From Rudanella lutea DSM 19387 (GTDB lineage: Bacteria > Bacteroidota > Bacteroidia > Cytophagales > Spirosomataceae): 64,000 bases of DNA. This document shows, piece by piece, positions 6,711 through 60,280 of this stretch. The notes below the pieces were generated by a model, which was given only the letters and a program-made list of their open reading frames with translations, searched no databases and was not told the origin of the DNA. Every line of letters begins with the position of its first letter. Positions within the stretch are counted from its first letter, which is position 1. The translations under genes were made by a program, and so were the position numbers. The DNA lies in NCBI RefSeq assembly GCF_000383955.1, contig NZ_KB913013.1:1828277-1892276 (forward strand). The letters are read 5' to 3'.

Positions 6711-6782
6711 GGAATGGGTAATGTGCAATGGATCTTCAGACCCGTTACACATTACCCATTTTCCATTATACAGTATTCATTA
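6711..6782. repeat. Iterated-word palindrome A (AATG type)
   Basis: Left arm 6711-6727 (GGAATGGGTAATGTGCA) pairs with right arm 6746-6764 (TACACATTACCCATTTTCC). Further AATG words run to 6782, where the rlmB stop codon lies. It sits between convergent genes. Confidence 0.6.
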
Positions 6783-7565
6783 TTTACTCCGCTGCCGTAC
6801 TACTTCGTACAGCACCACGCCGGTTGCTACCGACACGTTGAGCGAGCCTACCGACCCCAGCAGCGGAATTTTAACGTGGGTATCTACCAGTTTCAGAATC
6901 TCCGGCGAAATACCGTCTTCTTCAGAGCCCATCACAATCGCGAGCGGCCCGGTCATATCGGTTGGGGTTTCGTACAGGTCGCGGGGCGACTTTTCGGTAC
7001 AGGCCACCACCTGAACACCTGATTTCTGCAAATAGGCCACGGTATCTTCGAGATTGTACTCCCGGCATACCGAAATGTGGTTGAGCGCCCCCGACGACGT
7101 TTTCATAGCATCCGACCCGATCGCGGCTGCACCCCGGCCCGGAATCACAATGCACTGCACCCCAGCACACTCGGCCGTGCGGGCAATAGCCCCAAAGTTG
7201 CGTACATCGGTAATCCGGTCGAGCAGGAGCAAAAACGGCGTTTCGCCCCGTTCGTGCACATCGGCCAGTACATTAGAGAGCTTCACGTATTGCACAGCCG
7301 CCACCAGACAAACTACACCCTGGTGGTTTTTGCGCGTCAGACGGTCCAGCTTCTCTACCGGCACCCGCTGAATGGTCACGCGGTTCTGGAAAGCCAGTTG
7401 CTGAATTTCGGGGTGACTCATCCCCTTTTCCATGTACAGCTTGTCGATCTGCTGATCGGACCGCAGGGTTTCCAGCACCGACTGGATTCCGAATACCATA
7501 TCGTCAGAGCTGGGTTCCGGGCGGAAATTGGGGCGCTGCCGATTGGGTCTGTTGTTATAACTCAT
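6780..7565 (-). CDS. rlmB: 23S rRNA 2'-O-ribose methyltransferase, TrmH/SpoU family
   Basis: 261 residues. The N-terminal substrate-binding domain (VFGIQSVLETL, residues 24-100) precedes a SPOUT domain with all three motifs: NFGAIARTAECAGV, VMGSEEDGIS and IPLLGSVGSLNVSVATGV. RlmB methylates the 2'-OH of a guanosine in 23S rRNA domain V (G2251 in E. coli). TrmH-family paralogues are hard to tell apart, but the N-terminal domain and motif 3 favour RlmB. It lies 90 bp downstream of the GWxTD gene on the same strand. Confidence 0.85.
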   Translation of the reverse strand: MSYNNRPNRQRPNFRPEPSSDDMVFGIQSVLETLRSDQQIDKLYMEKGMSHPEIQQLAFQNRVTIQRVPVEKLDRLTRKNHQGVVCLVAAVQYVKLSNVLADVHERGETPFLLLLDRITDVRNFGAIARTAECAGVQCIVIPGRGAAAIGSDAMKTSSGALNHISVCREYNLEDTVAYLQKSGVQVVACTEKSPRDLYETPTDMTGPLAIVMGSEEDGISPEILKLVDTHVKIPLLGSVGSLNVSVATGVVLYEVVRQRSK

Positions 7566-7579
7566 ATGCTTTTTCTAAT

Positions 7580-7637
7580 CGCCAAAGGGCGACGAACCCC
7601 GCAAAGGTCGCAAACTCTTCGCGTTATTCGTCGCCCC
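7580..7637. repeat. Inverted repeat N (CGCAAAG words) between GWxTD gene and rlmB
   Basis: Perfect 10-bp arms GGGCGACGAA (7588-7597) and TTCGTCGCCC (7627-7636) enclose words of the form CGCAAAGGTCGCAAAC. It could end the GWxTD transcript, but no T-run follows directly. Confidence 0.45.
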
Positions 7638-7655
7638 CGACCGATTGTACCCAAA

Positions 7656-9101
7656 TTACTCCCGAATTGCGCCGGTACGCCAGGCCTCCACAATCGGATA
7701 CCATACCGGCTGATACTCTGCAAAGCGCACCAGTTCGTAATGATCGTCGACAAACTGATTAGGCTTGCGGTTGAAGGTAAAATTGATCTCCGACACGTTG
7801 GCCCGCCGGTTGTACACCCACACCTCACGGTCGCGGCTGCGCTGCACCCGGTCGGGAGGGCCGAGCACAATGTAAATCATGCCTTTGTCGGTTTTCCAGC
7901 CCTCTTTGTAGGTTGTAAAAAGCCGGTTGGCTTCTTCCACCCGGTTATAATACGCCCGAATGGTCCGCCGGGCTACCTCTTCGTTGCCCGACATGAGGCC
8001 CAGCCAATATTTATCGAGGGCTTTTTTGGCATCCGATGCGCCCCCCAGCTCATTCATTTCCGAGCTGGTGCTCACGTACATTACCGGTTTGGCCAGCTTC
8101 TCGGGTCGGGTCAGTTTCGGAAACCGGTTGTCGGTCACCATCAGGCCCAGTCCGTACGTATCGGTGGTGTCTTCCAGAAAGAAATACAAACCCTCTCTGG
8201 GAAGTTGGAACGGCTGGTTGGTCATGACCGTCAGTGTGGAGTCGACGGCCAATGTTTTCGGAACGGGCCGGTTGCCGGTGTTCATCGGCGACGAGGCCGC
8301 GTCGAACTCGTGCTTGTACCGGAAGCCGTACAAGGGCTTACTTGTACCGTTGACATCCCGAATCACAACGGTATCGTTGCGGCTCACGAAATTGCGCAAC
8401 CGGGGCAACCGTCCCTGGGCATCGAACAGGGTAAACCGGTCCGTGATACGCGGGGCCTGAAACCGAATCTGCAAATCGTTGAGGGCTTTGCGACCCGAGT
8501 TCACCTCGGTGATTTCGGTCAGCATAATGGCCGAAACGGCGTCTTTGGGGCGTTTTACCTCGAAGTTAAGCACCAGGTAATCGTCCAGCACAGTCAGGGT
8601 TTGGGCATTGGTTGGCACGTTGCCGTAGCCCAGCCGCTCCCGGTTGTTGTAGTCGGGGTACAGAACGTAATTGACCAGAAACCGTGTCGCAAAATCATCA
8701 ATATTCCGAATGGGCTTACCATCAGGCTGACGGGTATAGATGTGCAGATAGACGCGGGTAGCCGTACTGTCGACGGTCAGGAACTTGCCTTTGATAGCCG
8801 TAACCGCATAATCTGGGGCCGAATTGCCACCGCTCGCAGGCGGAGTGCCCGCGGCTGGCGTGGTAGGCCGGGCGTTGGAGCTGCCCGCCGGGCGCGCCGA
8901 TGCTCCGGGAGCCGCTGCTCCGGGGTCGGCATTGAGCGTGCCGGGGGTCCGGGGGCGGTCGGCCATTTCGCGCGACTGATTGGGCGCTTCCGTACGCGAC
9001 GGGTTAGATCGGTTCGAGTCGTAGGCAGTCGGCTGGGTCTTTTTTGACGAAGCACAGGCCGACACCAGCAGGGTTAGTGTGATCGCGGAAAGTAGGCGCA
9101 T
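7656..9101 (-). CDS. GWxTD domain lipoprotein
   Basis: 481 residues from the ATG at 9101. A lipoprotein signal is visible (MRLLSAITLTLLVSAC), followed by a low-complexity Pro/Ala/Ser linker (about residues 30-100) and a beta-rich middle. The C-terminal GWxTD domain is marked by EGWKTDKGMIYIVLGPPD. This domain is common in Bacteroidota and Acidobacteriota; its function is unknown. The upstream in-frame extension to 9197 would place a second hydrophobic segment before the lipobox and is rejected. Confidence 0.8.
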   Translation of the reverse strand: MRLLSAITLTLLVSACASSKKTQPTAYDSNRSNPSRTEAPNQSREMADRPRTPGTLNADPGAAAPGASARPAGSSNARPTTPAAGTPPASGGNSAPDYAVTAIKGKFLTVDSTATRVYLHIYTRQPDGKPIRNIDDFATRFLVNYVLYPDYNNRERLGYGNVPTNAQTLTVLDDYLVLNFEVKRPKDAVSAIMLTEITEVNSGRKALNDLQIRFQAPRITDRFTLFDAQGRLPRLRNFVSRNDTVVIRDVNGTSKPLYGFRYKHEFDAASSPMNTGNRPVPKTLAVDSTLTVMTNQPFQLPREGLYFFLEDTTDTYGLGLMVTDNRFPKLTRPEKLAKPVMYVSTSSEMNELGGASDAKKALDKYWLGLMSGNEEVARRTIRAYYNRVEEANRLFTTYKEGWKTDKGMIYIVLGPPDRVQRSRDREVWVYNRRANVSEINFTFNRKPNQFVDDHYELVRFAEYQPVWYPIVEAWRTGAIRE

Positions 9102-9204
9102 ACACCACAAATAAGTAACGTTCTGAATAAGATACGGTAAAATAACGAAAAACAGGTGCCTTATGGCCTGTAAACTCCTATTTTTCTTTGCAAACACAAA
9201 CGAG

Positions 9205-9212
9205 TAATTTTG
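9205..9212 (+). promoter_or_regulatory. Possible -7 element upstream of methyltransferase gene
   Basis: TAATTTTG matches TAnnTTTG and lies 55 bp before the ATG at 9267. The -33 region is only T-rich. Confidence 0.35.
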
Positions 9213-9266
9213 TAGAATAGTCGACAGGCGCCCTGTTTTGTCGGCTACCGACTATCGACTTTACGC

Positions 9267-10049
9267 ATGTACAAAACCACCGAGATTACCTCCGCCGAAA
9301 TTACCTCCGACAACCCGGTTCATCAGCGGCTACTTTTTCCGTATGTCGAAGCCGCGGAAATGGTAAGCGGCCAAGTGCTCGAAATTGGGTGCGGCTGGGG
9401 CCGCGGGCTGGAGTTGCTCACGCAGGCGGCAACCCACTACACGGGTATCGACAAAAACGCCGATCTGATAGGCTCGCTTCAGCAAGCCTACCCCAAGGCT
9501 ACCTTCGTAGCGGCTAATATCCCCCCCCTCACCGACGGCACCGGGCAACCTCTACCCGACAATACGTTTGATTTTGTGGTGACGTTTCAGGTAATCGAAC
9601 ACATCGAAAACGACGATCTGTTTGTGAAGGAAGCCTACCGGGTACTCAAGCCTGGGGGTAAATTACTACTCACGACGGTCAACAAGTCGTACTCTCTGAC
9701 GCGCAACCCCTGGCACGTGCGCGAGTACGTAGCCGACGAACTGCGGGCGCTCATGGGCCGTTATTTCCCGGTTGTCGAAACGCGCGGTATCCACGGCAAC
9801 AACAAGGTGATGACGTATTATGAGCAAAACAAGAAGTCGGTCGAACGCTTTACGCGCTGGGACATTTTCAACCTCCAATACCGGTTGCCCCGCCGACTGC
9901 TTCAGGTACCTTACGATATTGCCAACCGCATGAATCGCAACCGGCTGCTGAAGCAGGATGGTCTGGCCGCCGAAATCCGGCACACCGATTATGTACTGAG
10001 CGACTCACCTGCCCAAAGCCTCGATTTTTTCTACGTTGCCACCAAGTAA
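9267..10049 (+). CDS. Class I SAM-dependent methyltransferase
   Basis: 260 residues. SAM-binding motif I is LEIGCGWGRGLELL, motif II is YTGIDKNADLI, and FDFVVTFQVIEHIENDDL is the conserved acidic turn of Methyltransf_11. The C-terminal third (YYEQNKKSVERFTRWDIFNL) is basic and has no match I recognise. Substrate unknown. It is monocistronic and followed by a good terminator. Confidence 0.8.
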   Translation: MYKTTEITSAEITSDNPVHQRLLFPYVEAAEMVSGQVLEIGCGWGRGLELLTQAATHYTGIDKNADLIGSLQQAYPKATFVAANIPPLTDGTGQPLPDNTFDFVVTFQVIEHIENDDLFVKEAYRVLKPGGKLLLTTVNKSYSLTRNPWHVREYVADELRALMGRYFPVVETRGIHGNNKVMTYYEQNKKSVERFTRWDIFNLQYRLPRRLLQVPYDIANRMNRNRLLKQDGLAAEIRHTDYVLSDSPAQSLDFFYVATK

Positions 10050-10070
10050 TTAGTAGTCATCCACCCGTAC

Positions 10071-10098
10071 AGCCACTCCCAACCGAGTGGCTTTTTTT
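10071..10098 (+). terminator. Rho-independent terminator
   Basis: Stem AGCCACTC (10071-10078)/GAGTGGCT (10085-10092), 6-nt loop, then seven T. Confidence 0.8.
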
Positions 10099-10143
10099 GT
10101 GCCCATCGCCTGTAACCAAAAACACAACACCCTAAAAATCAAC

Positions 10144-10180
10144 TACCAAATACCAGAAAGTCCTACCGAATACCAGAAAA
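10144..10180. repeat. Short direct repeat upstream of tail-collar gene
   Basis: TACCAAATACCAGAAAG (10144-10160) and TACCGAATACCAGAAAA (10164-10180) are 17-nt copies at a 20-bp period, in an AT-rich leader. Two helical turns of spacing would suit a regulator site, but this is inference. Confidence 0.4.
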
Positions 10181-10294
10181 TATAAATGCATTTAAATACT
10201 AATATAATCAACCTATATACATTAGGCAGGCAATCCATACGGTTGTACTGAACCATTCTATTCTACCAACATTTTCTAACTACTTTTTCAAATC

Positions 10295-10819
10295 ATGGAA
10301 GTTTTCATTGGCATGATTGGCCTGTTTGGCTTCAATTTCCCCCCCAAAGACTGGGCATTCTGCAACGGGCAACTACTATCAATTTCCCAAAATTCAGCCC
10401 TGTTCGCCTTACTAGGTACAACGTACGGCGGTAACGGGCAGACCACGTTTGCTCTTCCCGATTTGCGTGGCCGTACTCCTATTGGTATGGGCAATGGTCC
10501 AGGCCTGACACCGCGCACCATTGGTGAGATGTCGGGCTCAGAGAACGTCACGCTTCTGCAAACCCAGATGCCCCAACACAATCACTTGATGAACGTGTCG
10601 AATCTGGCAGGAACAAATACAAGTCCCGAGAATTCCGTAATAGCGGTAGCGTCTGTTAGTGGTGAACCTCTTGCCGGATATAGTTCTACTATCGACACCA
10701 CGGCCAACCCAATGGCTATTGGCATGGCAGGCGGCACTCAGCCCCACAACAACATGCAACCTTACCTGGCAATGAACTACTGCATTGCGCTTTACGGCAT
10801 TTTCCCAAGCCGTAATTAA
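10295..10819 (+). CDS. Phage tail-collar domain protein (MdpB-like)
   Basis: 174 residues. The N-terminus MEVFIGMIGLFGFNFPP and the core WAFCNGQLLSI, then LPDLRGRTPIGMG, is the phage tail-collar fold. The middle MPQHNH and the C-terminal PYLAMNYCIALYGIFPS are the family's hallmarks ('microcystin-dependent protein' group). In Bacteroidota these occur as small stand-alone genes near secreted proteins, with no phage around them, as here. Role unknown. It may be cotranscribed with the FG-GAP gene 78 bp downstream. Confidence 0.85.
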   Translation: MEVFIGMIGLFGFNFPPKDWAFCNGQLLSISQNSALFALLGTTYGGNGQTTFALPDLRGRTPIGMGNGPGLTPRTIGEMSGSENVTLLQTQMPQHNHLMNVSNLAGTNTSPENSVIAVASVSGEPLAGYSSTIDTTANPMAIGMAGGTQPHNNMQPYLAMNYCIALYGIFPSRN

Positions 10820-10830
10820 TACATCCATCA

Positions 10831-10874
10831 GTCTTAGCTCTGCTGTAAAAAACTATCTGACGCAGGGCTAAGAC
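10831..10874. terminator. Hairpin between tail-collar and FG-GAP genes
   Basis: GTCTTAGCTCTGC (10831-10843) pairs with GCAGGGCTAAGAC (10862-10874) with one mismatch. It is followed by only a CT-rich run, so it may be a weak terminator or an intercistronic processing hairpin. Confidence 0.45.
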
Positions 10875-10897
10875 CTGTTCTCTTCCTCTATCCAACC

Positions 10898-13699
10898 ATG
10901 ACGAACCGCTACGCTCCATCAGTCCGGATGGCTTTTCTGGGCCTTTTGCTCCATTGCTTATTTACGTTTTCTATCCAGGCGGCCACTTCACCAACTGACC
11001 CGCCCAAAGCCACTGCTCATGCCGTGTTGGCTCCAGTGGCTTATTCAGAACCCGGCAGTCCGTTTCCAGCTCTGGCAAGCTTTCAACGGCGGCTTTTTTT
11101 TGATGCCGATAATGATGGCGATGTAGATATTTTGTATCAAACTACTACCACCTTAGGCTCTGGGATTGGCTTAAGTCTGAATAACGGTAGTGGAGGGTTT
11201 AACACCACACATACAGCTACTGAAGGAACCGGGCTCTTCACATCTGGGCCACTCAACGGAATTGCCCTACGCGAGGTGAGTAACCCAAACAGTTCTACCG
11301 GATTGGTAGCACTGGATTATGATAACGACGGCGATACGGACCTGTACGAGACGTCATCCTCTTCTACCGGACGGATTCTGCGTAACAACAACGGGAGTTT
11401 TAGTGTCCAGACCAGCCCGTTCCCCGCCTTGGTCAGCTTTGCCCGCCGACTTTTCTTTGATGCTGATAACGATGGGGATGTAGACATTCTGTACCAGTCT
11501 ACTACAACAGCAACCAACGGCATTGCCCTGAGGCTGAACAATGGTAGTGGCGATTTCAGTACGCTTCACTCAGCTACCGACGGAACCGGCCTATTTTCGT
11601 CAGGGCCACTTAATGGGATCACACTACGAGAGGTTAACGGCCCTACCAGCAACACAGCTCTGGTTGCTGTTGATTATGATAATGATGGAGATACCGACCT
11701 ATATGAGGCAGTAGCAGGTGGTGCCGGACGGATGCTTCGCAACAACAACGGTAGCTTTAGTGTCCAGGCCAGCCCATTTCCGACAATAGCCGCCTTCAGA
11801 CGTCAGATTTTCTTCGATGTAGACAGTGACGGCGACATTGATCTCCTCTATCAGACGGGCATAACGGCAGGCAGCGACATTGCCCTGATACTAAACAACG
11901 GCAGTGGTGGCTTTAGTAACACCATTACTGCGGCAAACGTAACCGGTTTATTTTCTTCTGGGCCACTCAGCGGAATTTCATTTCAGACGATTGGTAGTAC
12001 CAATAGTGCAGCGCTGTACGCTATCGACTACGACAACGATGGCGATACCGACCTATTTGAAGGTACAGCCAACTCAGCAGGGCGGATTATCCGGCAGAAT
12101 GAATCCCCACCAGTTATTTCTTCGACTAATCCCGCCGATAATGCCACCAACGTTTCTGTCACAGCCAATCTGGTGCTGACTTTCAACCGGAGCATGATCA
12201 AAGGAACGGGCAATCTGTATCTGGTACGTACTTCCGATAACAGCGTTGTCGAAACGATTCCGGTCACCAGCGCGCAGGTAACTGGGTCGGGAACCACCTG
12301 GACAGTTAACCCTAACAGTACGCTCGCCAGCCTGACCAACTACGCCCTGCGAGCCGACGAGGGGACTTTTTTCGATGCCGATGGTCGTATTTTCCGAGGT
12401 ATCCTTACAAATACCATCTTTAATTTTACCACCGGCTGTACCCCACCTATCGTTTCTATTAACCCCAATAGTGCGGTACTCACCTGTACTCAACCTACCC
12501 AAACGTTGACAGCCATTGGTACGGGTACCTTCCGCTGGTCGACAACGGCTACCTCGCCCACTATCATCGCCAACACGACGGGTACGTTCTCAGTCACCCT
12601 TACCGACGTCAACGGCTGTACGGCCACAGCCTCGAGCAACATCACGAGCAACACAACCGCCCCCGGCGCAACCCTTACGGCAAGTGGTCCACTCAACTGT
12701 ACGGCCACCAGCGTCACCCTCACGGCGGGCACTACGTTGGGGACTTTGTTTGCATTTAGCAGCGGAGCCGTGCAGTTGGGGGGCGTTTCGGGCCTCTCGG
12801 CTACTGTGAGCAGTGCCGGGTTGTACTCGGTTACCGTAACCGGAGCCAACGGCTGTACGAGCATAGCCAGCACCAACGTCACCCAAAACAACACCATTGC
12901 GGGCTTCACCGTGAGTGGAAGCGGATCGGCCTGCTCGGGCAGTACGGTGCTGCTCACAGCCAATGGTTGTACTGGTGGCACGGTATCCTGGCCCGGCGGT
13001 GTAGTAGGCAGCACGTTTTCGGCCAGCCTGACGGGCAACTACACGGCCACCTGCACCATCGGCACTTGTACCACCACCGCTACCGGCACGGCTACTATCA
13101 ATACCCCTGCTTTTGCGGCTGCCCCTACCCTCTCAACCAATACCCCACTGCCGGGGCAGGCCCTGAGCCTGAGTTATGCCGCTACGCAATGCCCCTTCAA
13201 CAATGCAGGGCCCTTCGGCGTCGAATTGTCAACGGATAATTTCGCCAGCCAAACGGCCCTGACCCCAACTACCAGCACCAGTACCGAGCTCACCGTCGAC
13301 CTACCCGGTACGCTTCTGGCCGGTACGGCATACCAGTTACGCGTAGTGTACCAAACCAGCACATTCAGCCCACCAGCCAGCTTCACCGTGTCAAGCCCGG
13401 CGGTTCTGAGTATTAGCGCGAGCCAAACAAGTATTTGCATTGGTGGTACCATACAACTCACAGCCACCGGATGCCCCGATGGCGAGGTACATTGGTCGAC
13501 GGGTGAAACGGGCGCATCGATTGTCGTGAGCCTAACGGCTACGAGTACCATCTCGGCCAGTTGTGTGATAGCCCCACCTCCCACGCGCGACGCCTTCGCC
13601 CCCGGTAAGGCACAAACGTCGGCACGGCCCCAAACGCCCCCCCAACGGAGTAGCCAACCCGCCGAAGCCATTGATCGACGGCGGCTCCCGAACCGATAA
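10898..13699 (+). CDS. Secreted FG-GAP/Big_5/Ig-like repeat protein, 3' end probably broken
   Basis: 933 residues as read. A signal peptide ends near FSIQAATS. Three tandem repeats of exactly 119 residues (54-172, 173-291, 292-410) each carry two Ca-binding FG-GAP loops (DADNDGDVDI, DYDNDGDTDL). A Big_5 (SbsA Ig-like) domain follows (SPPVISSTNPADNATNVSV, to about residue 510), then Ig/PKD-like units with NGCTATASS-type ends. After CVIAPPP (about nt 13573) the composition changes to a basic, proline-rich tail that looks like a readthrough of unrelated DNA. No type IX sorting domain is present. Probably a cell-surface or secreted adhesin, truncated. Confidence 0.75.
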   Translation: MTNRYAPSVRMAFLGLLLHCLFTFSIQAATSPTDPPKATAHAVLAPVAYSEPGSPFPALASFQRRLFFDADNDGDVDILYQTTTTLGSGIGLSLNNGSGGFNTTHTATEGTGLFTSGPLNGIALREVSNPNSSTGLVALDYDNDGDTDLYETSSSSTGRILRNNNGSFSVQTSPFPALVSFARRLFFDADNDGDVDILYQSTTTATNGIALRLNNGSGDFSTLHSATDGTGLFSSGPLNGITLREVNGPTSNTALVAVDYDNDGDTDLYEAVAGGAGRMLRNNNGSFSVQASPFPTIAAFRRQIFFDVDSDGDIDLLYQTGITAGSDIALILNNGSGGFSNTITAANVTGLFSSGPLSGISFQTIGSTNSAALYAIDYDNDGDTDLFEGTANSAGRIIRQNESPPVISSTNPADNATNVSVTANLVLTFNRSMIKGTGNLYLVRTSDNSVVETIPVTSAQVTGSGTTWTVNPNSTLASLTNYALRADEGTFFDADGRIFRGILTNTIFNFTTGCTPPIVSINPNSAVLTCTQPTQTLTAIGTGTFRWSTTATSPTIIANTTGTFSVTLTDVNGCTATASSNITSNTTAPGATLTASGPLNCTATSVTLTAGTTLGTLFAFSSGAVQLGGVSGLSATVSSAGLYSVTVTGANGCTSIASTNVTQNNTIAGFTVSGSGSACSGSTVLLTANGCTGGTVSWPGGVVGSTFSASLTGNYTATCTIGTCTTTATGTATINTPAFAAAPTLSTNTPLPGQALSLSYAATQCPFNNAGPFGVELSTDNFASQTALTPTTSTSTELTVDLPGTLLAGTAYQLRVVYQTSTFSPPASFTVSSPAVLSISASQTSICIGGTIQLTATGCPDGEVHWSTGETGASIVVSLTATSTISASCVIAPPPTRDAFAPGKAQTSARPQTPPQRSSQPAEAIDRRRLPNR
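11057..12127 (+). repeat. Three tandem 357-bp in-frame repeats
   Basis: Repeat starts at 11057, 11414 and 11771 are exactly 357 bp apart. Each copy encodes a SPFP...RR/RQ.FFD segment and two FG-GAP loops. The first two copies are the most alike. Confidence 0.8.
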
Positions 13700-16545: not shown

Positions 16546-16643
16546 ATAAATAGGAACACGGATTAATGAGATTCAACGCCCTGAAACAGATTTTACCCTG
16601 ATTATCCATTTTAATCTGTTCAACCCGTTTCACCCGTGTTTCT
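16546..16643. repeat. Iterated-word palindrome B (ACACGGATT type)
   Basis: Left arm 16552-16594 (GGAACACGGATTAATGAG, then AACAGATTTT) pairs with right arm 16608-16643 (AATCTGTTCAACC, then CACCCGTGTTTCT). It ends 14 bp before the nnr ATG. Confidence 0.55.
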
Positions 16644-16657
16644 ATCCAAAGCCAACT

Positions 16658-20726: not shown

Positions 20727-20828
20727 AGTTACAGTTTACAGTTTACAGTTTGCAGTTCACAGTTTGCAGTTCTGACTATGCCATTGGGTCTCTACAACTG
20801 TAAACTGAAAACAGCAAACTGAAAACTA
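20727..20828. repeat. Iterated-word palindrome C (CAGTTTACAGTT type), feoA-feoB spacer
   Basis: Left arm 20727-20771 (ACAGTTTACAGTTTACAG and on) pairs with right arm 20796-20827 (AACTGTAAACTGAAAACAG and on), about 26 of 32 positions. It fills the whole feoA-feoB spacer and includes the feoA stop codon. Confidence 0.7.
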
Positions 20829-21983: not shown

Positions 21984-22068
21984 AGTTTTCAGTGTACAGT
22001 TTGCGGTTTACAGTTCGCTTGCGCGTCTGCTAGCCCAACTGAAAACTGAAGACCGTAAACTGTAAACT
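21984..22068. repeat. Iterated-word palindrome D (CAGTTTACAGTT type), ccmB-ccmC spacer
   Basis: Left arm 21984-22015 and right arm 22037-22068, each 32 nt, pair at about 24 positions. The words match palindrome C. It fills the spacer up to the base before the ccmC ATG. Confidence 0.7.
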
Positions 22069-22785: not shown

Positions 22786-22875
22786 AAATGTAAAATGAAT
22801 AGTGTAAGATGTACAATGAGATGGCTGATTATCAGCAGGTAATTCAATTATACATTTTACATTGTTCATTCACTT
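22786..22875. repeat. Iterated-word palindrome E (AATG type), ccmC-ccmD spacer
   Basis: Left arm 22786-22820 (AAATGTAAAATGAATAGTG and on) pairs imperfectly with right arm 22846-22875 (AATTATACATTTTACATTG and on). The loop contains its own CTGATTATCAG palindrome. Confidence 0.6.
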
Positions 22876-26989: not shown

Positions 26990-27077
26990 TGAGCAGTGAA
27001 CAATGAGCAACGATCAACCAACACTAACCCGTTGACCGTTGCTCATTGTTCGTTGATCATTGTTCACTGTTCGTTGT
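26989..27077. repeat. Iterated-word palindrome F (AATGAACAATG type)
   Basis: Left arm 26991-27018 (AGTGAACAATGAGCAACG and on). Right arm 27031-27076 carries an extra unit of about 14 nt (GTTGATCATTGTTC). GAACAATGAGCAACG pairs almost perfectly. It fills the spacer to the CorC-like gene. Confidence 0.7.
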
Positions 27078-28383: not shown

Positions 28384-28486
28384 CAATGAATAATGAGCAA
28401 TGAATAATGGATAATGGCCTGCCGGGTACATACATGCCTCAGCCTATTATTCACAATTCACTATTCATTATCCATTGTTCTCTACG
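28384..28486. repeat. Iterated-word palindrome G (AATGAATAATG type)
   Basis: Left arm 28384-28416 (CAATGAATAATGAGCAATG and on) is complementary to right arm 28443-28482 (TATTATTCACAATTCAC and on). It lies between convergent genes. Confidence 0.65.
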
Positions 28487-32660: not shown

Positions 32661-32700
32661 TAAAAAGCCCTGTACGAGAACTGGCGTACAGGGCTTTTTA
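32661..32700 (-). terminator. Terminator downstream of the 87-aa lipoprotein gene
   Basis: AAAAGCCCTGTACG (32663-32676)/CGTACAGGGCTTTT (32684-32697), an almost perfect 14-bp stem with A/T-runs on both sides. Confidence 0.85.
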
Positions 32701-32997: not shown

Positions 32998-33093
32998 GTG
33001 AATGAACAATGTAAAATGCACAATGAATAATTAGATTACCTGTTGCCAATCAGCCCGTTCATTATACATTTTACATTGTTCACTATCCATTTT
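32998..33093. repeat. Iterated-word palindrome H (AATGAACAATG type)
   Basis: Left arm 32998-33031 (TGAACAATGTAAAATGCAC and on) and right arm 33058-33093 (TATACATTTTACATTGTTC and on) match at about 23 of 26 central positions. It sits in the spacer after the OmpA gene. Confidence 0.7.
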
Positions 33094-38492: not shown

Positions 38493-38507
38493 AAAGAAGA
38501 TTACCAT

Positions 38508-38581
38508 TTAGGAGGTAAGGTTTGGGGTAAGCGAATAGGCAACTCCAAACTCTTACCTCCTAACTATTAATGCTTACCTCA
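38508..38581. repeat. Iterated-word palindrome I (GGTAAG type)
   Basis: Left arm TAGGAGGTAAGGTTTGGGG (from 38509) pairs with right arm CTCCAAACTCTTACCTCCTA (38543-38562). A second TTACCTC word follows at 38574. Confidence 0.6.
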
Positions 38582-52874: not shown

Positions 52875-52990
52875 AGTTTATCGTTTTGAGCTCGGGACCT
52901 CCGGTGTTTCTATTCAGCGTGAATAGCCTGATAATAAGGCTGTTCATGCTGCATAAATCGCCGTACCGATCTGCTAAAAACGATAAACCA
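52875..52990. repeat. Long imperfect hairpin K upstream of the 180-aa gene
   Basis: The outer arms GTTTATCGTTTT (52876-52887) and AAAAACGATAAAC (52976-52988) pair. The inner stem CAGCGTGAATAGCCT (52915-52929)/AGGCTGTTCATGCTG (52937-52951) has two mismatches and a 7-nt loop. The intervening parts are also partly complementary, making one 116-nt hairpin ending 26 bp before an ATG. Confidence 0.6.
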
Positions 52991-54746: not shown

Positions 54747-54751
54747 AAAAT

Positions 54752-54850
54752 TTTAGTGATGAGTGATAAGCTATGAGTGATGAACGTTCCGCCGTAGCGG
54801 TTTGTACCGGTAGATTCACTCATAATTCATCGCTCATCGTTCATCGCTCA
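54752..54850. repeat. Iterated-word palindrome L (ATGAGCGATGA type), xerD-aroQ divergent spacer
   Basis: Left arm 54755-54785 (GTGATGAGTGATAAGC and on), right arm 54814-54851 (TCATCGCTCATCGTTCATCG and on), with a small CCGCCGTAGCGG hairpin between. The last CTCATG supplies the aroQ start codon. Confidence 0.65.
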
Positions 54851-55275
54851 TGAAAAAGATTCTGATCCTGAACGGCCCGAACCTCAACCTGCTGGGTAAG
54901 CGCGAGCCGCACATTTACGGCAGCCGCACGTTTGTTGATTACCTCAAAACAATCGAAGCGCAGTTTCCGGAGGTGCAAATTCACTATTTCCAGTCGAATC
55001 ACGAAGGCGAGCTGATCGATAAAATTCACGAACACGGTTTTACCATCGACGGTATTGTGATTAATGCCGGGGCTTACACCCACACGTCGATTGCCATTGC
55101 GGATGCCCTTTCGGCCGTGACCGCCCCCACCGTGGAGGTACACATCTCGAACGTACACGCCCGCGAGGCTTTCCGGCACCACAGCTACCTCTCGGCCAAG
55201 TGCAAGGGTGTGATTGTGGGGCTGGGGCTCATGGGGTATGAGCTGGCCGTGCGATATTTAGTGCAGACCGATTAA
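54850..55275 (+). CDS. aroQ: 3-dehydroquinate dehydratase, type II
   Basis: 141 residues, dodecameric flavodoxin-like fold. Motifs: NGPNLNLLGKREPHIYG (catalytic Arg/Tyr loop), NHEGELIDKIHE, NAGAYTHTSIAIADAL and VEVHISN (catalytic His). It acts in the shikimate pathway. Confidence 0.97.
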   Translation: MKKILILNGPNLNLLGKREPHIYGSRTFVDYLKTIEAQFPEVQIHYFQSNHEGELIDKIHEHGFTIDGIVINAGAYTHTSIAIADALSAVTAPTVEVHISNVHAREAFRHHSYLSAKCKGVIVGLGLMGYELAVRYLVQTD

Positions 55276-55279
55276 CTTT

Positions 55280-55823: not shown

Positions 55824-55847
55824 CATTCTGCCGAAGCCCCTCCTTTT

Positions 55848-56864
55848 ATGCCAACCTTCTACCCCGGCCCCTCAAAAGTGTACCCCCAGGTTGCCAACTA
55901 TGCCGCCGAGGCTGTCCGGTCGGGCATTGTGAGCCTGAACCACCGGAGTGCGGGCTTCATGGACATTGTGCGGCAGGCCATTGAACAACTGCACCAAAAG
56001 CTGGCCATCCCGTCTGATTACCACATTGCCTTCGTATCGTCGGCTACCGAATGCTGGGAGATTGTGGCTCAGTCGCTTACGGGGAGCACGAGTCTGCACC
56101 CGCACAGTGGGGCATTCGGGCAGAAATGGATGGAGTACGCCCACCGGATTCGCCCGATGGTCCGGCCCGACCTGGCCGATACGCTTTGTCTGGTCCAGAA
56201 CGAAACGTCTAACGGCACTCAATTGAACCGGGAAACGCTGACTCAGTTCCGGCAAGATTTTACGGGCCTCATCGCGGTAGATGCCGTATCGAGTATGGCG
56301 GGTATTGCCCTCGACTGGACACGCGCCGATGTCTGGTTTGCGTCGGTGCAGAAATGCTTTGGCCTACCCGCCGGGCTCGCCGTGCTGGTATATTCACCGG
56401 CGGCACTCGCGCGGGCCGAGGCCATCGGTGAGCGGGCACACTACAACAGTCTGTTGTTTATTCACGAGAATTTTAGCCGGTTTCAGACCCCGTACACCCC
56501 TAATGGCCTGGGCATTTACTGCCTGTTGCGGGTACTCGAACAGCTCCCCCCCATTGCCGAGGTCGACGCCCGCACCCGAAACCGGGCCACCGAGTGGTAT
56601 CGCTTTTTTGAGCAGGACACAAATCACTTACCGTTTACCCTCCTGATCGACGAACCAACCCGACGTTCGGACACGGTGATTGCGGTAGAAGGCCCACCCG
56701 AAGCAATCAAGGCGGTAAAAACGGCCGCGAGCACGGCTGGAATTACCTTAGGCAATGGCTACGGCGCGTGGAAAAACACCACGTTTCGGATTGCTAACTT
56801 CCCAGCTATCGATGACGATGAAATCGCCCAACTGAAGACATTTTTACGTCAATATCGCCCCTGA
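55848..56864 (+). CDS. SerC-like aminotransferase (class V)
   Basis: 338 residues. The PLP Lys is K169 in WFASVQKCFGLPAGLAVLVY; the phosphate-binding area is FVSSATECWEIVAQSL. The start FYPGPSKVYPQV and the QKxxGLPAG loop are those of phosphoserine aminotransferase relatives. A true SerC has a GPxGL loop and longer C-terminus, so specificity is uncertain. It follows the TA pair by 24 bp. Confidence 0.75.
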   Translation: MPTFYPGPSKVYPQVANYAAEAVRSGIVSLNHRSAGFMDIVRQAIEQLHQKLAIPSDYHIAFVSSATECWEIVAQSLTGSTSLHPHSGAFGQKWMEYAHRIRPMVRPDLADTLCLVQNETSNGTQLNRETLTQFRQDFTGLIAVDAVSSMAGIALDWTRADVWFASVQKCFGLPAGLAVLVYSPAALARAEAIGERAHYNSLLFIHENFSRFQTPYTPNGLGIYCLLRVLEQLPPIAEVDARTRNRATEWYRFFEQDTNHLPFTLLIDEPTRRSDTVIAVEGPPEAIKAVKTAASTAGITLGNGYGAWKNTTFRIANFPAIDDDEIAQLKTFLRQYRP

Positions 56865-56902
56865 GTATCCTTATTTCTTCTATTCCTAAACCATTCACGT
56901 AC

Positions 56903-57280
56903 ATGGAATTAGCGGCCAAAATCATGACGGGCCTTGTTGCCCTTGAGCACCTGTACATTCTCTACCTGGAGATGTTTGCCTGGGAAACACTCGGCAAAAA
57001 GACGTTTAAAGGCTCCCTACCCGACGAGCTGTTCAAACCAACGAGGGTGATGGCCGCCAATCAGGGGCTGTACAACGGGTTTCTGGCCGCGGGCCTGATC
57101 TGGAGCTTTACCATTACCGATCCCCAGTGGTCCGAAAAGGTAGCGGTCTTTTTTCTCAGCTGCGTGGCTATCGCGGGTATCTATGGTGCCTTCACCGCGA
57201 GCAAAAAAATCTTTTACACCCAGGCCCTGCCGGCCTTGCTCGCCTTACTGTTCACGTTGCTGGCCGGCATAGGCAACTAA
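56903..57280 (+). CDS. DUF1304 integral membrane protein
   Basis: 125 residues, four helices. LVALEHLYILYLEMFAWET at the N-terminus and NQGLYNGFLAAGLIW are the DUF1304 signature. Function unknown. Confidence 0.85.
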   Translation: MELAAKIMTGLVALEHLYILYLEMFAWETLGKKTFKGSLPDELFKPTRVMAANQGLYNGFLAAGLIWSFTITDPQWSEKVAVFFLSCVAIAGIYGAFTASKKIFYTQALPALLALLFTLLAGIGN

Positions 57281-57400
57281 GGCCTGGATCGGTAGCGAAT
57301 CGAGGGCAAACTCGCGGGCTTACTACCCGGTTCATTTGCCCATACCGTCTGTTTACACTAATCTTGCCCACGCATTGGTGCAGGCCGCCCACTCACCGCC

Positions 57401-57976
57401 ATGTTCAGTTTCAAAGAAATCATCTCGGTCACGCTCATTCTGTTTTCGGTCATCGACATTATCGGCTCGTTGCCCATTATCATCGACCTACGCCGGAAAT
57501 TTGGGGCTATTGAGTCCGAAAAGGCCACATTTGTGTCGGGGGCGCTGATGGTTAGCTTTCTGTTTGTAGGCGAAAAAATCCTGAAGCTATTCGGCGTCGA
57601 TGTGTCATCGTTTGCGGTGGCCGGTGCCCTCATTATTTTCCTGCTAGGGCTGGAAATGATTCTGGGCCGAACCATTTTCAAATCCGAAGTGGAAGCCGAC
57701 GGGGCTGCGCATATCGTTCCCATTGCGTTTCCGCTCATTGCGGGCGCGGGCACCATGACCACCCTCATCTCGCTACGTACTGAGTACCAGACAGCCAACA
57801 TTATTGTGGGCATTGTGATCAATCTGGTGCTGGTGTACATAGTTCTTAAATCGTCGGAATGGCTCGAAAACCGGCTTGGGCCGGGCGGATTGGCCGTTCT
57901 TCGGAAGGTATTCGGCATTATCCTGCTGGCCATTGCCATCAAATTGTTCAAAACGAATCTGCTGCCCCAGTTTTAA
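57401..57976 (+). CDS. MarC-family integral membrane protein
   Basis: 191 residues, six helices. Motifs: FSVIDIIGSLPIIIDL, FLLGLEMILG and IAFPLIAGAGTMTTLISL. MarC (UPF0056) proteins are inner-membrane with no established role. Confidence 0.85.
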   Translation: MFSFKEIISVTLILFSVIDIIGSLPIIIDLRRKFGAIESEKATFVSGALMVSFLFVGEKILKLFGVDVSSFAVAGALIIFLLGLEMILGRTIFKSEVEADGAAHIVPIAFPLIAGAGTMTTLISLRTEYQTANIIVGIVINLVLVYIVLKSSEWLENRLGPGGLAVLRKVFGIILLAIAIKLFKTNLLPQF

Positions 57977-58018
57977 CGCGGCTCGCGCAGATACCCGGCT
58001 TTCCCCTAAATTTGCGCG

Positions 58019-58486
58019 ATGCAATCACCAGATTCTTTACTTGCGGTGGCCGAGTTCCACCATACCTTTCATGCCCCTGTACTCGATACGCCCCAAATTC
58101 CGGCCGAGGGGCGGTGCCGCCTGCGCGTATCGCTGTTGGCCGAAGAGCTCGATGAATTTCGGGAGGCCATTGCCGCGGGCGATATTGTGGCCGTAGCCGA
58201 TGCCCTTTGCGACTTGCAGTATGTACTCTCCGGGGCGGTACTGGAATTTGGACTGGGCCATCAGTTTAAGGCGCTGTTTGATGAGGTGCAGCGCTCCAAC
58301 ATGAGTAAGGCCTGCCTCACCACCGACGAAGCCGAAGCCACCGTGGCATTTTACCAGGCCAAGGGGGTAGCCTGCCACTATGTCGAGTCCGACGGGCGGT
58401 ATCTGGTCTTCCGGGATGAAGACAAAAAAACGCTCAAAAGCATCAATTATTCACCAGCCGATCTTGCCGGGATTCTCCAGCCTTAA
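58019..58486 (+). CDS. MazG/PRA-PH-like nucleoside triphosphate pyrophosphohydrolase
   Basis: 155 residues. The all-alpha NTP-PPase core is visible: LLAEELDEFREAIAAGD (E-E-x-x-E), then VADALCDLQYVLSG (D-x-x-D), which bind Mg. The C-terminal third (VESDGRYLVFRDEDKKTLKS) is extra and of unknown fold. It may sanitise nucleotides. A -7-like TAAATTTG (58007-58014) lies almost on the start codon. Confidence 0.75.
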   Translation: MQSPDSLLAVAEFHHTFHAPVLDTPQIPAEGRCRLRVSLLAEELDEFREAIAAGDIVAVADALCDLQYVLSGAVLEFGLGHQFKALFDEVQRSNMSKACLTTDEAEATVAFYQAKGVACHYVESDGRYLVFRDEDKKTLKSINYSPADLAGILQP

Positions 58487-58624
58487 TAGATACGCTAGCC
58501 CCGACCTGGCCTTTGTGTCGAAGCAGGGGCCTATTGCCGTTTTTACTGAGACTGTACTTTACAGATCCGTTAGGGAGTAAGTAACTTAAACTATTCACCC
58601 ACTTCCGACGTATATACCTTGTAC

Positions 58625-58672
58625 TCGCCCCGGCAGCTCTGCTTCTGAGTAGCCGGGGCGAATTTCGTTTTG
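58625..58672 (+). terminator. Terminator-like hairpin
   Basis: TCGCCCCGGC (58625-58634)/GCCGGGGCGA (58652-58661) followed by ATTTCGTTTTG. Confidence 0.6.
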
Positions 58673-58692
58673 CTCAACGTCTCTATTCCTTC

Positions 58693-59139
58693 ATGAAAAC
58701 TCTCCCCCTTCGGCTACGCCCGAGCCTCGCCCTGCTGTTTGTCAGTCTTTTTTTTGTGAGCCTTGCGGCCTGTAGCCGGAAAGAAGACGACCCCATCGAC
58801 CCCGAGAACCCCGGAGCCGCAGTAGTGGGTAGCTATACCATCGATTACTACAACGCCAACGGTACCGAATACGACAAGGCAAAAGTTGGCGCTATCGGGA
58901 CAATCTCGGTGGTGAGCAGCGGCCGCGAATTTGTGGAGGTCAACCAGGTGTTGAGCCTCCAGAACACAACGATCTTTAGCCCGTTTCCAACGTCCATGCG
59001 CATCGTGAAAAACGGCAACAAATCGGTACTGCTGCAAACGTACGACAGTAAGCCCATCGGCTCCATTACCGACGGCGCTCTCGACATTACCATCGTCGAT
59101 CGGCTCTACACCACTACGATCCGGGCCCGGCGGCAGTAA
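58693..59139 (+). CDS. Small lipoprotein, beta-rich
   Basis: 148 residues. Signal ending FFVSLAAC, then a linker DDPIDPENPG and a beta-strand domain (GSYTIDYYNANGTEYDKAKV to TTTIRARRQ). No family recognised; the size and linker are typical of Bacteroidota surface lipoproteins. Confidence 0.7.
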   Translation: MKTLPLRLRPSLALLFVSLFFVSLAACSRKEDDPIDPENPGAAVVGSYTIDYYNANGTEYDKAKVGAIGTISVVSSGREFVEVNQVLSLQNTTIFSPFPTSMRIVKNGNKSVLLQTYDSKPIGSITDGALDITIVDRLYTTTIRARRQ

Positions 59140-59287
59140 GCCCCCTCCCCCTCCGATGGCGTTCATCCCCTAAAAAAAGGGGTTTGTCACACGCCGGACG
59201 TCGTTTGTCCGATTCTATGCCACAACCCTTGTTTAGGCCGTATATTTGGTCTGTACTCTTAACTACCTGGCAAACGGACTTTAGCCT

Positions 59288-60214
59288 GTGATCCCAAAAT
59301 CTATTCTCGAAACGCGCAATATTGTCAAACAGTACGCCCAGCACCGGGCCCTCGACGATGTTAGCCTGACCGTACCCAGCGGTAGTATTTTTGGTTTGCT
59401 GGGACCCAACGGGGCGGGTAAAACCTCCCTCATCCGCATCATTAACCAGATCACCGCCCCCGACGCGGGCGAGGTGTTTCTGGGGGGCGAAACCCTCCGG
59501 CCCGACCACATCCGGCGCATTGGCTACCTGCCCGAAGAGCGGGGACTCTACAAAAAAATGAAGGTGGGTGAGCAACTGCTGTATCTGGCCCAGCTCAAGG
59601 GCCTGACCGAGCGGCAGGCGATGGACAAGCTCAAAATCTGGTTCACCAAGTTTGATATCAAAACCTGGTGGGAGAAAAACGTAGAAGACCTCTCGAAGGG
59701 GATGCAGCAGAAAATTCAGTTTGTGGCTACGGTTTTGCACGAGCCCGACCTGATCATTCTGGACGAACCATTCTCGGGCTTTGACCCAATCAACGCCAAT
59801 CTGATAAAAGACGAGATTCTGGAGCTGAAAAAGAACGGAGCTACCATTATCTTCTCAACCCACCGCATGGAGTCGGTGGAGGAGCTGTGCGACCACATTG
59901 CCCTCATCAACCGCTCGCACAAGATCCTCGACGGCCCCAAGCGTGCCATTAAGGAGCAATTCAAGACGCATACCTACCACGTTGAATACCAGGGAAATTT
60001 AACGGATTTACCGCCGGCTTTTCAGGTGGTTGGCAGCAAGCCTACCGACGATAACTTCACGCGTGCCGACATCCGTATTCCGCCCGATGCGTCGGTCAAC
60101 GATCTTATTCGGACCCTGCTGGAGCGGGTAGCCGTCCGCAGCTTTGGCGAGAACATCCCCAGCATGAACGACATCTTTATTCGGTCAGTGAATGGTGAAA
60201 GATCGAACGAGTGA
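59288..60214 (+). CDS. ABC exporter ATP-binding protein (NatA-like)
   Basis: 308 residues from a GTG start. Walker A GPNGAGKTS, signature LSKGMQQK, Walker B LIILDEPFSGFDP, switch His in IIFSTHRMESVEEL. The C-terminal 90 residues (DUF4162-like) are usual for NatA/CcmA-type exporters. Its last codons (SVNGERSNE) and stop lie in palindrome M. TATATTTG at 59241 could be its -7. Confidence 0.85.
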   Translation: MIPKSILETRNIVKQYAQHRALDDVSLTVPSGSIFGLLGPNGAGKTSLIRIINQITAPDAGEVFLGGETLRPDHIRRIGYLPEERGLYKKMKVGEQLLYLAQLKGLTERQAMDKLKIWFTKFDIKTWWEKNVEDLSKGMQQKIQFVATVLHEPDLIILDEPFSGFDPINANLIKDEILELKKNGATIIFSTHRMESVEELCDHIALINRSHKILDGPKRAIKEQFKTHTYHVEYQGNLTDLPPAFQVVGSKPTDDNFTRADIRIPPDASVNDLIRTLLERVAVRSFGENIPSMNDIFIRSVNGERSNE

Positions 60215-60280
60215 AAGAGCAAAAGCTCAAGCCTCTGATCACTCTTTCGTTCTCTCACTCTTTCGCTCTTTCACTCTTAT
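60185..60280. repeat. Iterated-word palindrome M (GTGAAAGAGCG type)
   Basis: Left arm 60187-60220 (GAACGAGTGAAAGAGC and on) encodes the ATPase C-terminus and stop. Right arm 60241-60278 (CACTCTTTCGCTCTTTCACT) ends at the base before the permease ATG. Confidence 0.7.

Follow-up and report, generated by a model that had tools for sequence, protein, structure and literature searches.

Palindromes of the window

The window analyzed here is the whole stretch of 64,000 nucleotides from the Rudanella lutea DSM 19387 contig NZ_KB913013.1. Its spacers, beside genes such as those for FeoB, CcmB-like and CNNM/CBS/CorC proteins, harbor palindromes whose arms are arrays of a degenerate, tandemly repeated word (Table 1). 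Palindromes had been listed in 11 spacers by the initial annotation, and 10 of these sites were recovered by an ungapped palindrome scan with a score of at least 12. A total of 12 mostly intergenic palindromes reach this score in the window, whereas dinucleotide shuffling of the spacers (50 replicates) gave a mean of 0.10 and a maximum of 2; the shuffled background that had been proposed as a check thus yields about 0.1 per window. The 12 consist of 9 iterated elements (8 listed and 1 new) and 3 plain hairpins. The listed sites 6713 and 60195 lie within ORF calls and are therefore outside this count.

Table 1. Palindromic elements of the window.
Positions	Element	Genomic context	Scan values and remarks
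6713-6760	Palindrome, heptad AATGNNN class	Just 3' of + strand ORF 6236-6697	Score 15.5, lag-7 0.62
16546-16650 (end approximate)	Weak gapped 9-mer palindrome, ACACGGATT type		Under threshold in the window
20740-20827	Palindrome, CAGTTTN heptad	5' side of - strand FeoB gene	Score 19.5, lag-7 0.80
21991-22068	Palindrome, CAGTTTN heptad	Between CcmB-like gene and cytochrome c assembly (CcmC-like) gene	
22794-22870	Palindrome, AATG subfamily, end TTAAGTACTCGGACAGAATT (from 22766)		Palindrome scan
26991-27072	Palindrome, AATGAAC/CAACGAAC heptad	Spacer before CNNM/CBS/CorC gene	
28384-28477	Palindrome, AATGAAT heptad	3' of CNNM/CBS/CorC gene stop	
33003-33082	Palindrome, AATGNNN heptad		Score 20, lag-7 0.75
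38500-38571	Palindrome		Different words at the same site in R. paleaurantiibacter
52876-52988	Palindrome, GTTTATC/GTTTTTG class		Missing from the earlier list; loop 81 nt, score 13.5, lag-7 0.61
54759-54851	Palindrome, GATGAGT heptad	Extends into ATG of type II dehydroquinase gene	
60195-60274	Palindrome, 8-nt unit (AAAGAGTG)	Within 5' end of ABC2-type membrane-transporter ORF call	

The observation is larger than what had been claimed. An 800-kb part of the R. lutea genome contains 171 intergenic palindromes with a score of at least 12, versus 3, 0 and 1 in three shuffles. Iterated palindromes number 110 in these 800 kb, mostly near stop codons and with a G-rich 5' arm, and 96 in the matching 800-kb stretch of a species that is 90% identical. 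No Rfam RNA family matches the window at the gathering score.

The repeated unit is 7 nt, or 8 or 9 nt in some elements, and not the 8-14 nt first proposed. Among 117 intergenic palindromes with arms of at least 18 nt, a shift of 7, 14 or 21 nt leaves an arm self-identity of 0.50, versus 0.26-0.32 for the remaining lags from 2 to 24, so that tandem 7-nt units exceed chance; the exceptions include the 60185 element (unit 8) and the 16546 element (unit 9). The word previously given as AATGAACAATG is in fact the class AATGNNN, with a variable triplet. As a phylum-wide marker AATGNNN was unspecific, since the reversed control also matches many genomes. The idea of a constant architecture with differing words was borne out, and shuffling abolishes this architecture.

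The sites of the window are not all of one kind when compared with their counterparts in relatives. The 16546 palindrome passes the threshold in the same spacer of R. paleaurantiibacter and of the L010 genome, and the 20740 element retains its word in the ortholog. Two other genomes carry different words in the 21991 spacer, making three words across three genomes. The counterpart of the 28384 element in R. paleaurantiibacter has near-perfect arms, and that of the 60195 element has AATGCRT-type units. In other genera, the same CNNM/CBS/CorC gene is preceded by palindromes with other words. The 22786 element is absent in R. paleaurantiibacter, lacks an iterated counterpart among the calls for two more genomes, and looks like a recent insertion.

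Placement relative to genes

The median distance from an iterated element to a stop codon is 11 nt. Only 6 of 99 elements lie between divergent genes, compared to 65 of 272 spacers of at least 100 nt, and 27 of 99 lie between convergent genes, compared to 43 of 272. The remaining palindromes found by that scan, which include many terminator-like ones, show a comparable distribution (44 co-directional, 27 convergent, 6 divergent). This placement, together with pairing that is maintained through change, would suit functional RNA hairpins, either terminators or stabilizers of mRNA 3' ends, in which selection acts on the structure only and the word drifts freely. Mismatches of the iterated elements are of the G.U type in 111 cases and of the A.C type in 94 (p 0.26), without the significant wobble excess that would support such RNA-level maintenance, which had been suggested earlier and is weakly disfavored. 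The corresponding split in non-iterated palindromes is 49 vs 30 (p 0.04), and the difference from the iterated ones is not significant (p 0.29). Furthermore, a terminator needs no iterated words, some elements sit within one pathway, as between the ccmB- and ccmC-like genes, and perfect arms of 36-51 bp are more than RNA pairing requires. We thus consider the RNA explanation improbable. The hairpin is followed by 3.75 T in 10 positions in iterated elements and 3.92 in 10 in the other palindromes, a likeness that does not separate the two sets. An intrinsic terminator would be a GC-rich hairpin with a U tract behind it; at least 6 T in 10 are found at 18 of 111 gene-side ends of iterated elements and at 17 of 84 for the other palindromes.

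Word classes with fixed ends

MITEs are defined by terminal inverted repeats and a target-site duplication of fixed length. Both were found for the GACATTA class only, which is thus MITE-like. Its fixed ends, YTCAGTACTGGACATT..CAGTACTGAR, have 67 matches in the genome with at most 2 mismatches, versus 2 in the reversed control. Among the 19 two-ended copies (loci L264-L283), an exact 9-bp target duplication is present in 5, and at least 7 of the 9 positions match in 10. Unlike those of MITEs, its arms are heptad arrays. No autonomous partner with matching ends was evident by eye in the list of GACATTA end matches. An AATG subfamily also has fixed ends, with 13 end copies and, in the relative, empty sites that have TTA at both sides. 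Fixed ends were found in two word classes only. The earlier view of the palindromes as a single family that excludes ordinary repeats is thus unsupported in that form.

Word change at orthologous spacers

Orthologous spacers were compared, as had been proposed, and words were found to have changed while pairing was kept. Different-word iterated palindromes occupy both species at 7 of 429 aligned spacers, or 10 including three intermediate cases, as counted by eye against a species 90% identical; about 1.0 is expected under independence. This excess is about 7-fold (Fisher p 2e-5 for the 7, when three spacers excluded on reading are counted as one-sided). The three, C1:1790743, 1909355 and 2247154, were among ten classified automatically as both different and were dropped as insertions beside a palindrome or changes to one, rather than replacements of one iterated element by another. 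The automatic classification itself, based on 295 non-divergent spacers of at least 90 nt, yields 9/13/9/264, with an odds ratio of 20 (p 4e-7). Paired loci in Spirosoma, in Fibrella/Fibrivirga and in Larkinella show word changes as well. One orthologous gene is preceded by palindromes with a score of at least 12 in 18 of 37 family genomes, versus 0.15 in shuffles, with sequences that vary between genera (the neighboring gene was checked in part of the genomes). The outgroup comparison, which bears on ancestral states, covers 25 spacers.

Two explanations bear on these changes: renewal of each hairpin from its own arms, and turnover by insertion and loss, which is its close rival. The latter supposes many mobile palindromic families, MITE- or REP-like, each word class being spread by an enzyme and then inserted, deleted and decaying independently. 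The iterated words would be enzyme-binding arrays in the element ends, and 3' gene flanks would be tolerated landing sites, so that relatives hold different families in the same spacer. The GACATTA and AATG classes described above speak for such families, and orthologous spacers are shorter in either direction between species. In addition, the two words of a both-different pair resemble each other no better than randomly paired words do (8 same-period pairs; median 0.42 vs 0.43, p 0.63), as expected if one element is replaced by an unrelated one, which counts against renewal. The 8 same-period intermediate pairs have words closer than chance (p 1.4e-4), partly by construction because this class was picked by alignment identity. 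Set against mobile families, half of the 10 replaced sites have spacers that differ in length by at most 10 nt (137/140, 143/144, 149/144, 125/129 and 202/192), those at the other 5 differing by 14-50 nt, and target duplications were not seen in most other classes, which were looked at unsystematically. The 7-fold excess of same-site pairs also speaks against independent insertion, although landing hot spots could give it. We regard mobile families as a serious possibility, if short of probable.

Two comparisons count against renewal. Of the 52 spacers where both species have iterated elements, 33 hold similar ones, and Larkinella pairs with 92-93% identity mostly keep their words. A second ortholog survey, on a Fibrella pair with 200 kb from each, covered 11 syntenic spacers, none of which has elements in both genomes.

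Paired changes and unit changes within arms

Paired changes in the two arms number 28, against a permutation mean of 17.3 (reached in 1 of 1000), and 32 when taken from the other species (mean 17.8, reached in 0 of 1000); the two directions have most sites in common. Without the both-different and intermediate sites, the numbers are 14 (mean 7.5, 5 of 1000) and 17 (mean 8.6, 2 of 1000). Compensatory changes beyond chance are characteristic of template switching, and an excess in this direction would equally follow from RNA selection. At C1:2155452, which is also among the 7 different-word sites, both arms have undergone one and the same change, T-A to G-C, at each of the positions 0, 7, 14 and 21.

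Arms had been said to differ by whole units, in a manner pointing to slippage. Seven nucleotides is indeed the commonest indel length (10 of 67), and the enrichment for exact units is weak: of the 67 indels of at least 5 nt that fall inside elements, 15 have a length exactly divisible by the unit of the element concerned. Whole-unit indels are thus weak proof of slippage, and their small number counts against renewal. The same change one unit apart is only in mild excess (27, mean 16.9, maximum 28 of 400; and 26, mean 17.8, maximum 27), which likewise counts against it.

A tip module capping iterated arms

A tip hairpin, GGCTGACGC...GCGTCAGCC, was found in 19 of 121 genomes of the family, whereas a sample of 197 other genomes of the phylum has none. 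It caps iterated arms in the 40 copies read, 38 of which have arms of at least 16 nt, with a self-identity of 0.64 at lag 7. Complementarity falls from 98% adjoining the tip to about 25% past 42 nt. Perfect 36-51 bp arms are seen at a unit-to-unit identity of only 0.31-0.65. In two genomes (G056 and G008), arms are 0.92 and 0.95 identical to their own partner, whereas the closest arm from another of the loci read reaches 0.70 and 0.65. Such locus-specific, near-perfect arms at one tip are not predicted by the copying of whole mobile elements. In the Larkinella-genus genome G298, arms match their partner and other loci equally (0.90 and 0.90); arms that are alike across loci fit the copying of whole elements there, against renewal.

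REPs keep their sequence. By contrast, arms are not conserved among tip copies in two of the three genomes read, and the conservation of the tip itself follows from the choice of search pattern. A REP or REPIN element would depend on a Y1 (TnpA-REP) transposase; among the genomes searched, Y1_Tnp matches were found in 17 of the 18 with the tip and in 7 of the 9 without it. A RAYT/Y1 transposase is a doubtful necessary driver, as tip-rich G278 has 35 copies and no Y1 transposase match; yet all other tip-bearing genomes searched do match. REP and REPIN elements with their TnpA-REP transposases, the subject of PMC8266576, PMC3116915 and PMC3733652, are likewise extragenic multicopy palindromes. 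Of 163 articles matching GGCTGACGC and GCGTCAGCC in a text search of the literature, the 15 listed, 10 of which contain both, concern unrelated subjects, as judged by title and start of abstract.

Proposed maintenance of hairpins at the DNA level

The reading that we favor, with a probability of about 0.4, is that these elements are DNA hairpins whose shape is maintained at the DNA level even as their sequence is replaced, with additional seeding by mobile elements. During replication, the nascent strand would fold back at the hairpin and copy one arm from the other, as in quasipalindrome template switching; arms would thereby stay identical and a change of unit would spread to both. Slippage of units within arms could homogenize the word. 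New hairpins would be seeded by mobile palindromic modules, namely MITE-like elements and tip modules nested in larger hairpins, and large word jumps may represent the whole replacement of one hairpin by another. Word classes common to loci and genera, a point against renewal, need dispersal beyond template switching alone. Placement would reflect what spacers tolerate, which is 3' flanks away from divergent promoters. Such maintenance would require no beneficial function, and the hairpins may shape mRNA 3' ends.

A bolder version, which we consider rather doubtful, is that a hairpin without fixed sequence acts as its own template, growing or being renewed from its tip in steps of 7-9 nt that are each copied into both arms. 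Site and shape would be inherited and the word would not, the tip modules GGCTGACGC...GCGTCAGCC and GCTTCGCG...CGCGAAGC being nucleation or entry points that nest in one another. Renewal of this kind, in either version, would define a type of chromosomal element that is inherited by its structure more than by its sequence and is thus missed by homology searches that rely on sequence. The 110 and 96 elements in two 90%-identical species would serve as natural replicates in which to measure how hairpins are built and renewed by template switching and slippage in bacteria.

Comparison with described arrays

Searches of the open-licence literature gave no published account of this combination. Hairpin maintenance by quasipalindrome template switching during DNA replication has been proposed for perfect stems, multi-base compensatory changes and asymmetric pair frequencies; it was demonstrated on RNA genes, and the sections available deal with neither iterated words nor dispersed families (PMC8794818).

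In Geobacter metallireducens, paired tandem octa- or heptanucleotide arrays on opposite strands were described as 'putative global regulator binding sites' (PMC2700814). These resemble the present elements in their degenerate tandem 7- or 8-mers, two opposite-strand arrays at variable distance, many copies and nearby insertion sequences, and differ in being described as a few fixed-consensus classes; the accessible part of that report does not describe word replacement, locus-specific arms or a tip module (PMC2700814). By analogy, the Rudanella arrays could bind a nucleoid protein or global regulator at a spacing of 7-9 bp in two orientations. The AATG tetrad changed between species at 30 of 428 positions and the variable triplet at 55 of 298, and the 5' arm is G-rich in 91.5 of 110 iterated elements (ties counted as half) and in 36 of 39 tip copies with arms of at least 10 nt, as might be expected of binding sites. 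Words nevertheless vary among sites of one genome and are replaceable at orthologous sites, and each variable triplet has its mirror image in the opposite arm, which binding does not need. We consider binding arrays a very improbable explanation.

Heptamer direct repeats such as TAACTGA are likewise intergenic, with some in Bacteroidetes, and the excerpts at hand report 7-nt units and 7-nt indels between close strains (PMC4679880). As far as these excerpts extend, they are direct arrays, with 169 direct sets and one indirect repeat in the BOGUAY genome, whereas inverted arms are the rule in Rudanella (PMC4679880).

Iterated palindromes in the window and the genome

The window occupies C1:1828277-1892276 of a 6.5-Mb genome (G000) from the family Spirosomataceae. 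The initial annotation had reported intergenic palindromes with tandem-word arms, and 10 of its 11 sites contain a palindrome with a score of at least 12. The repeated unit, described there as 8-14 nt long, measures 7 nt at these ten sites, except for one 8-nt case. In total, 12 intergenic palindromes of the window score at least 12, versus a mean of 0.10 in 50 spacer shuffles, and 9 of the 12 are iterated, with inverted arms built of tandem 7-9 nt units ("words"). Across 800 kb of the genome, 171 palindromes reach this score, whereas three shuffles gave 3, 0 and 1; within the arms, self-identity has sharp peaks at 7, 14 and 21 nt. Requiring an arm of at least 14 nt and a unit identity of at least 0.5 gives 110 iterated palindromes (75, 21 and 14 with units of 7, 8 and 9 nt) and 96 in the corresponding 800 kb of Rudanella paleaurantiibacter, the closest named relative compared, which is collinear and 90.2% identical in DNA across 734 kb of blocks. 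The 5' arm is the G-rich one in 91.5 of 110 (ties counted as half) and 87 of 96 iterated palindromes, and in 46 of 88 and 47 of 97 other palindromes from the two species.

Individual sites in the window, on its contig (C1) and in loci of other genomes
Position	Feature	Observation
Window 16546	Reported palindrome	Weak case, 9-mer unit; not among the ten sites scoring at least 12
Window 21984	Spacer	CAGTTTA here, GTTTATG in R. paleaurantiibacter, TTAGTCA-like unit in the L010 genome
Window 22786	AATG-subfamily copy	Missing in R. paleaurantiibacter; TTA flanks on both sides; no iterated call in either of two outgroup genomes
Window 32661-32700	Terminator-like palindrome	No unit structure, 16-nt arms fully complementary; ordinary contrast to heptad elements
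Window 52876-52988	Additional palindrome	Absent from the initial annotation
Window 60185	Reported palindrome	Unit 8 nt
C1:1583449	Non-iterated terminator-like hairpin	Compared with the R. paleaurantiibacter ortholog, stem letters largely changed; hairpin remains
C1:1790832	AATG-subfamily copy	Missing in R. paleaurantiibacter; TTA flanks on both sides
C1:2155452	Replaced site	In-step identical changes
L019 19302; L018 19539	Fibrella hairpins	Tip GCTTCGCG..CGCGAAGC caps heptad arms; at one site arms are similar, tips differ
L036/L037 near 12801 and 6820	CCCCTAAATCCCC-type palindrome	In one Larkinella, absent in another

Word replacement at orthologous spacers

We compared 429 syntenic spacers between this genome and R. 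paleaurantiibacter. No iterated element is present in 327, and a similar one is common to both species in 33. An element is called on one side only in 27 and 23 spacers for the two species, with homologous sub-threshold sequence kept in 10 and 10; some of these one-sided spacers look alike, one side falling below the calling threshold. The sequences differ in 10 spacers and are intermediate in 9. The initial annotation had proposed checking whether words change at orthologous positions: read by eye, 7 of the 10 different and 3 of the 9 intermediate spacers carry one iterated palindrome in place of another (AGGAGTG to AATGTGT, GACGTTA to AATGCGT, GGCAGTA to GGGAGAA type). About 1.0 such replacement is expected under independence versus the 7 found (Fisher p 2e-5). 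Same-site word changes also occur in other Spirosomataceae pairs among the matches listed; among the same matches, words are mostly unchanged between Larkinella pairs of 92-93% identity, and one Spirosoma pair lacks iterated elements within the stretch compared.

Among 37 genomes, represented by the window and 36 loci, a palindrome scoring at least 12 lies upstream of the CNNM/CBS/CorC gene in 18 (versus 0.15 in shuffles) and downstream in 12 (versus 0.0); not every one shows a clear unit, and the neighbouring gene was checked in part of the genomes. The upstream sequences differ between genera.

In 8 different pairs of equal period, word similarity is at the random level (median 0.42 versus 0.43), so the large jumps are explained by replacement; such jumps would arise when an element is swapped for another mobile palindrome. 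In 8 intermediate pairs the words are closer than chance (p 1.4e-4), but this class was itself picked by alignment identity.

Mobile classes

Part of the iterated palindromes is ordinary mobile DNA and part is not. The view that they are not ordinary MITE or REP copies is partly supported: it fits those with word replacement and fails for the GACATTA class and one AATG subfamily. GACATTA elements are MITE-like, with heptad arms and fixed ends YTCAGTACTGGACATT..CAGTACTGAR (for example L271, L273, L277, L281 and L282 of this genome); the ends match 67 times in the genome at up to 2 mismatches, versus 2 for a reversed control. The 20 loci read (L264-L283) contain 19 two-ended copies, with lengths of 86, 93, 100, 115 and 128 bp; a 9-bp target duplication is exact in 5 of the 19, and 10 of the 19 match at 7 or more of the 9 positions. 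The AATG subfamily with end TTAAGTACTCGGACAGAATT has 13 copies at up to 3 mismatches.

Shared tips and changes common to both arms

In 7 copies, palindromes whose words differ have a tip in common, GCTGACGC...GCGTCAGC or a near variant of it. In its strict form, GGCTGACGC-N4-24-GCGTCAGCC, the tip occurs in 19 of 121 family genomes from 4 genera, at up to 64 copies, and only twice in the present genome; its reversed control has zero matches in any of the 121. Among 197 other genomes of the phylum, one of them from the same family, the tip has no match and the control one, in one genome. We fetched 40 of the 151 copies counted in three genomes (G056, G008, G298), picked from listed places. All 40 have inverted arms, one being cut by a contig end, and 38 have arms of at least 16 nt, with self-identity of 0.64 at lag 7, 0.66 at lag 14 and 0.60 at lag 21. 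Complementarity declines from 98% in the first 7 nt to 90% at 15-21, 60% at 29-35 and background beyond 42 nt. Over 24 nt, own-arm identity versus that to the best other locus read is 0.92 versus 0.70 in G056 (16 copies) and 0.95 versus 0.65 in G008 (13 copies); both are 0.90 in G298 (10 copies). Three loci (L323, L327, L331) have perfect 36-51 bp arms despite units that have drifted apart, and therefore changes that are locus-specific and common to both arms. Hairpins can also be nested: a 200-kb stretch of G008 (G008:C3) holds one TTCGACAGGCTCAG hairpin inside GGCTGACGC inside GCTTCGCG, and at one place in Larkinella (L036/L037) a CCCCTAAATCCCC-type palindrome sits within the loop of a heptad hairpin, the relative's loop being free of it.

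Across 64 alignable elements, 28 paired substitutions were counted versus a permutation mean of 17.3 (reached in 1 of 1000), and 32 versus 17.8 from the R. paleaurantiibacter side (0 of 1000), mostly at the same sites. With different and intermediate spacers left out, the counts are 14 versus 7.5 (5 of 1000) and, in the other direction, 17 versus 8.6 (2 of 1000). One of the 7 replaced sites shows an identical change at 0, 7, 14 and 21, in step with the unit, and identical changes one unit apart are in mild excess (27 versus 16.9, maximum 28 of 400). Hairpin-templated synthesis, renewing elements in place, would account for perfect arms specific to a locus, for changes in step with the unit and for words that have drifted. 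Probably such renewal and replacement by mobile palindromes both act.

With orthologs of both species pooled, sense-strand mismatches are G.U-type in 111 and A.C-type in 94 cases for iterated elements (p 0.26) and 49 and 30 for other palindromes (p 0.04); the difference between these ratios is not significant (p 0.29). This pattern weakly favours upkeep at the DNA level; an RNA function is possible as an addition. Protein-binding arrays are another possible addition, and the AATG tetrad is changed less than the triplet (7.0% versus 18.5%), as binding would predict.

Earlier reports describe paired tandem octa/heptanucleotide arrays on opposite strands in Geobacter metallireducens (PMC2700814), heptamer direct repeats in Beggiatoaceae, Cyanobacteria and a few Bacteroidetes (PMC4679880), and, for RNA genes, the upkeep of hairpins by template switching (PMC8794818). 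Our literature searches turned up neither a description of words being replaced between orthologous hairpins nor one of the tips described above.

Placement and distribution

Iterated palindromes lie at a median distance of 11 nt from a stop codon. The 99 outside ORF calls lie in co-directional (66), convergent (27) and divergent (6) spacers, compared with 164, 43 and 65 among spacers of at least 100 nt. Palindromes that are not iterated have a similar distribution (44, 27 and 6), so this placing is not peculiar to the iterated ones. Another 11 fall inside called ORFs, and some of these calls may be spurious. The adjoining genes are ordinary, encoding FeoB, CcmB-like, CcmC- and CcmF-like cytochrome c assembly proteins, the CNNM/CBS/CorC protein, an M20 peptidase, an OmpA-family protein, a type II dehydroquinase and an ABC2-type transporter.

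Densities of iterated palindromes per 100 kb are 13.8 in this genome, 13.7 in Larkinella loci, 12.0 in R. paleaurantiibacter, 7.9 in loci of the Spirosoma/Fibrella/Fibrisoma type, 6.2 in the 48 kb of three Rudanella-like loci and 2.0 in Cyclobacteriaceae and others. For two outgroup genomes, the stretches covered contain 16 in 280 kb and 3 in 110 kb. Tandem AATGNNN patterns match 95 and 96 times in this genome versus 5 and 3 for the controls. Of 198 Bacteroidota genomes, 62 contain a match to four such units in tandem, and the motif was ruled out as a specific marker outside this genome because the reversed control also matches many. Titled Flavobacterium sp. SUN052, the L010 record may be misnamed; it encodes a CNNM/CBS/CorC protein 89% identical to that of the window, and parts of it match the window at about 65-79% identity.
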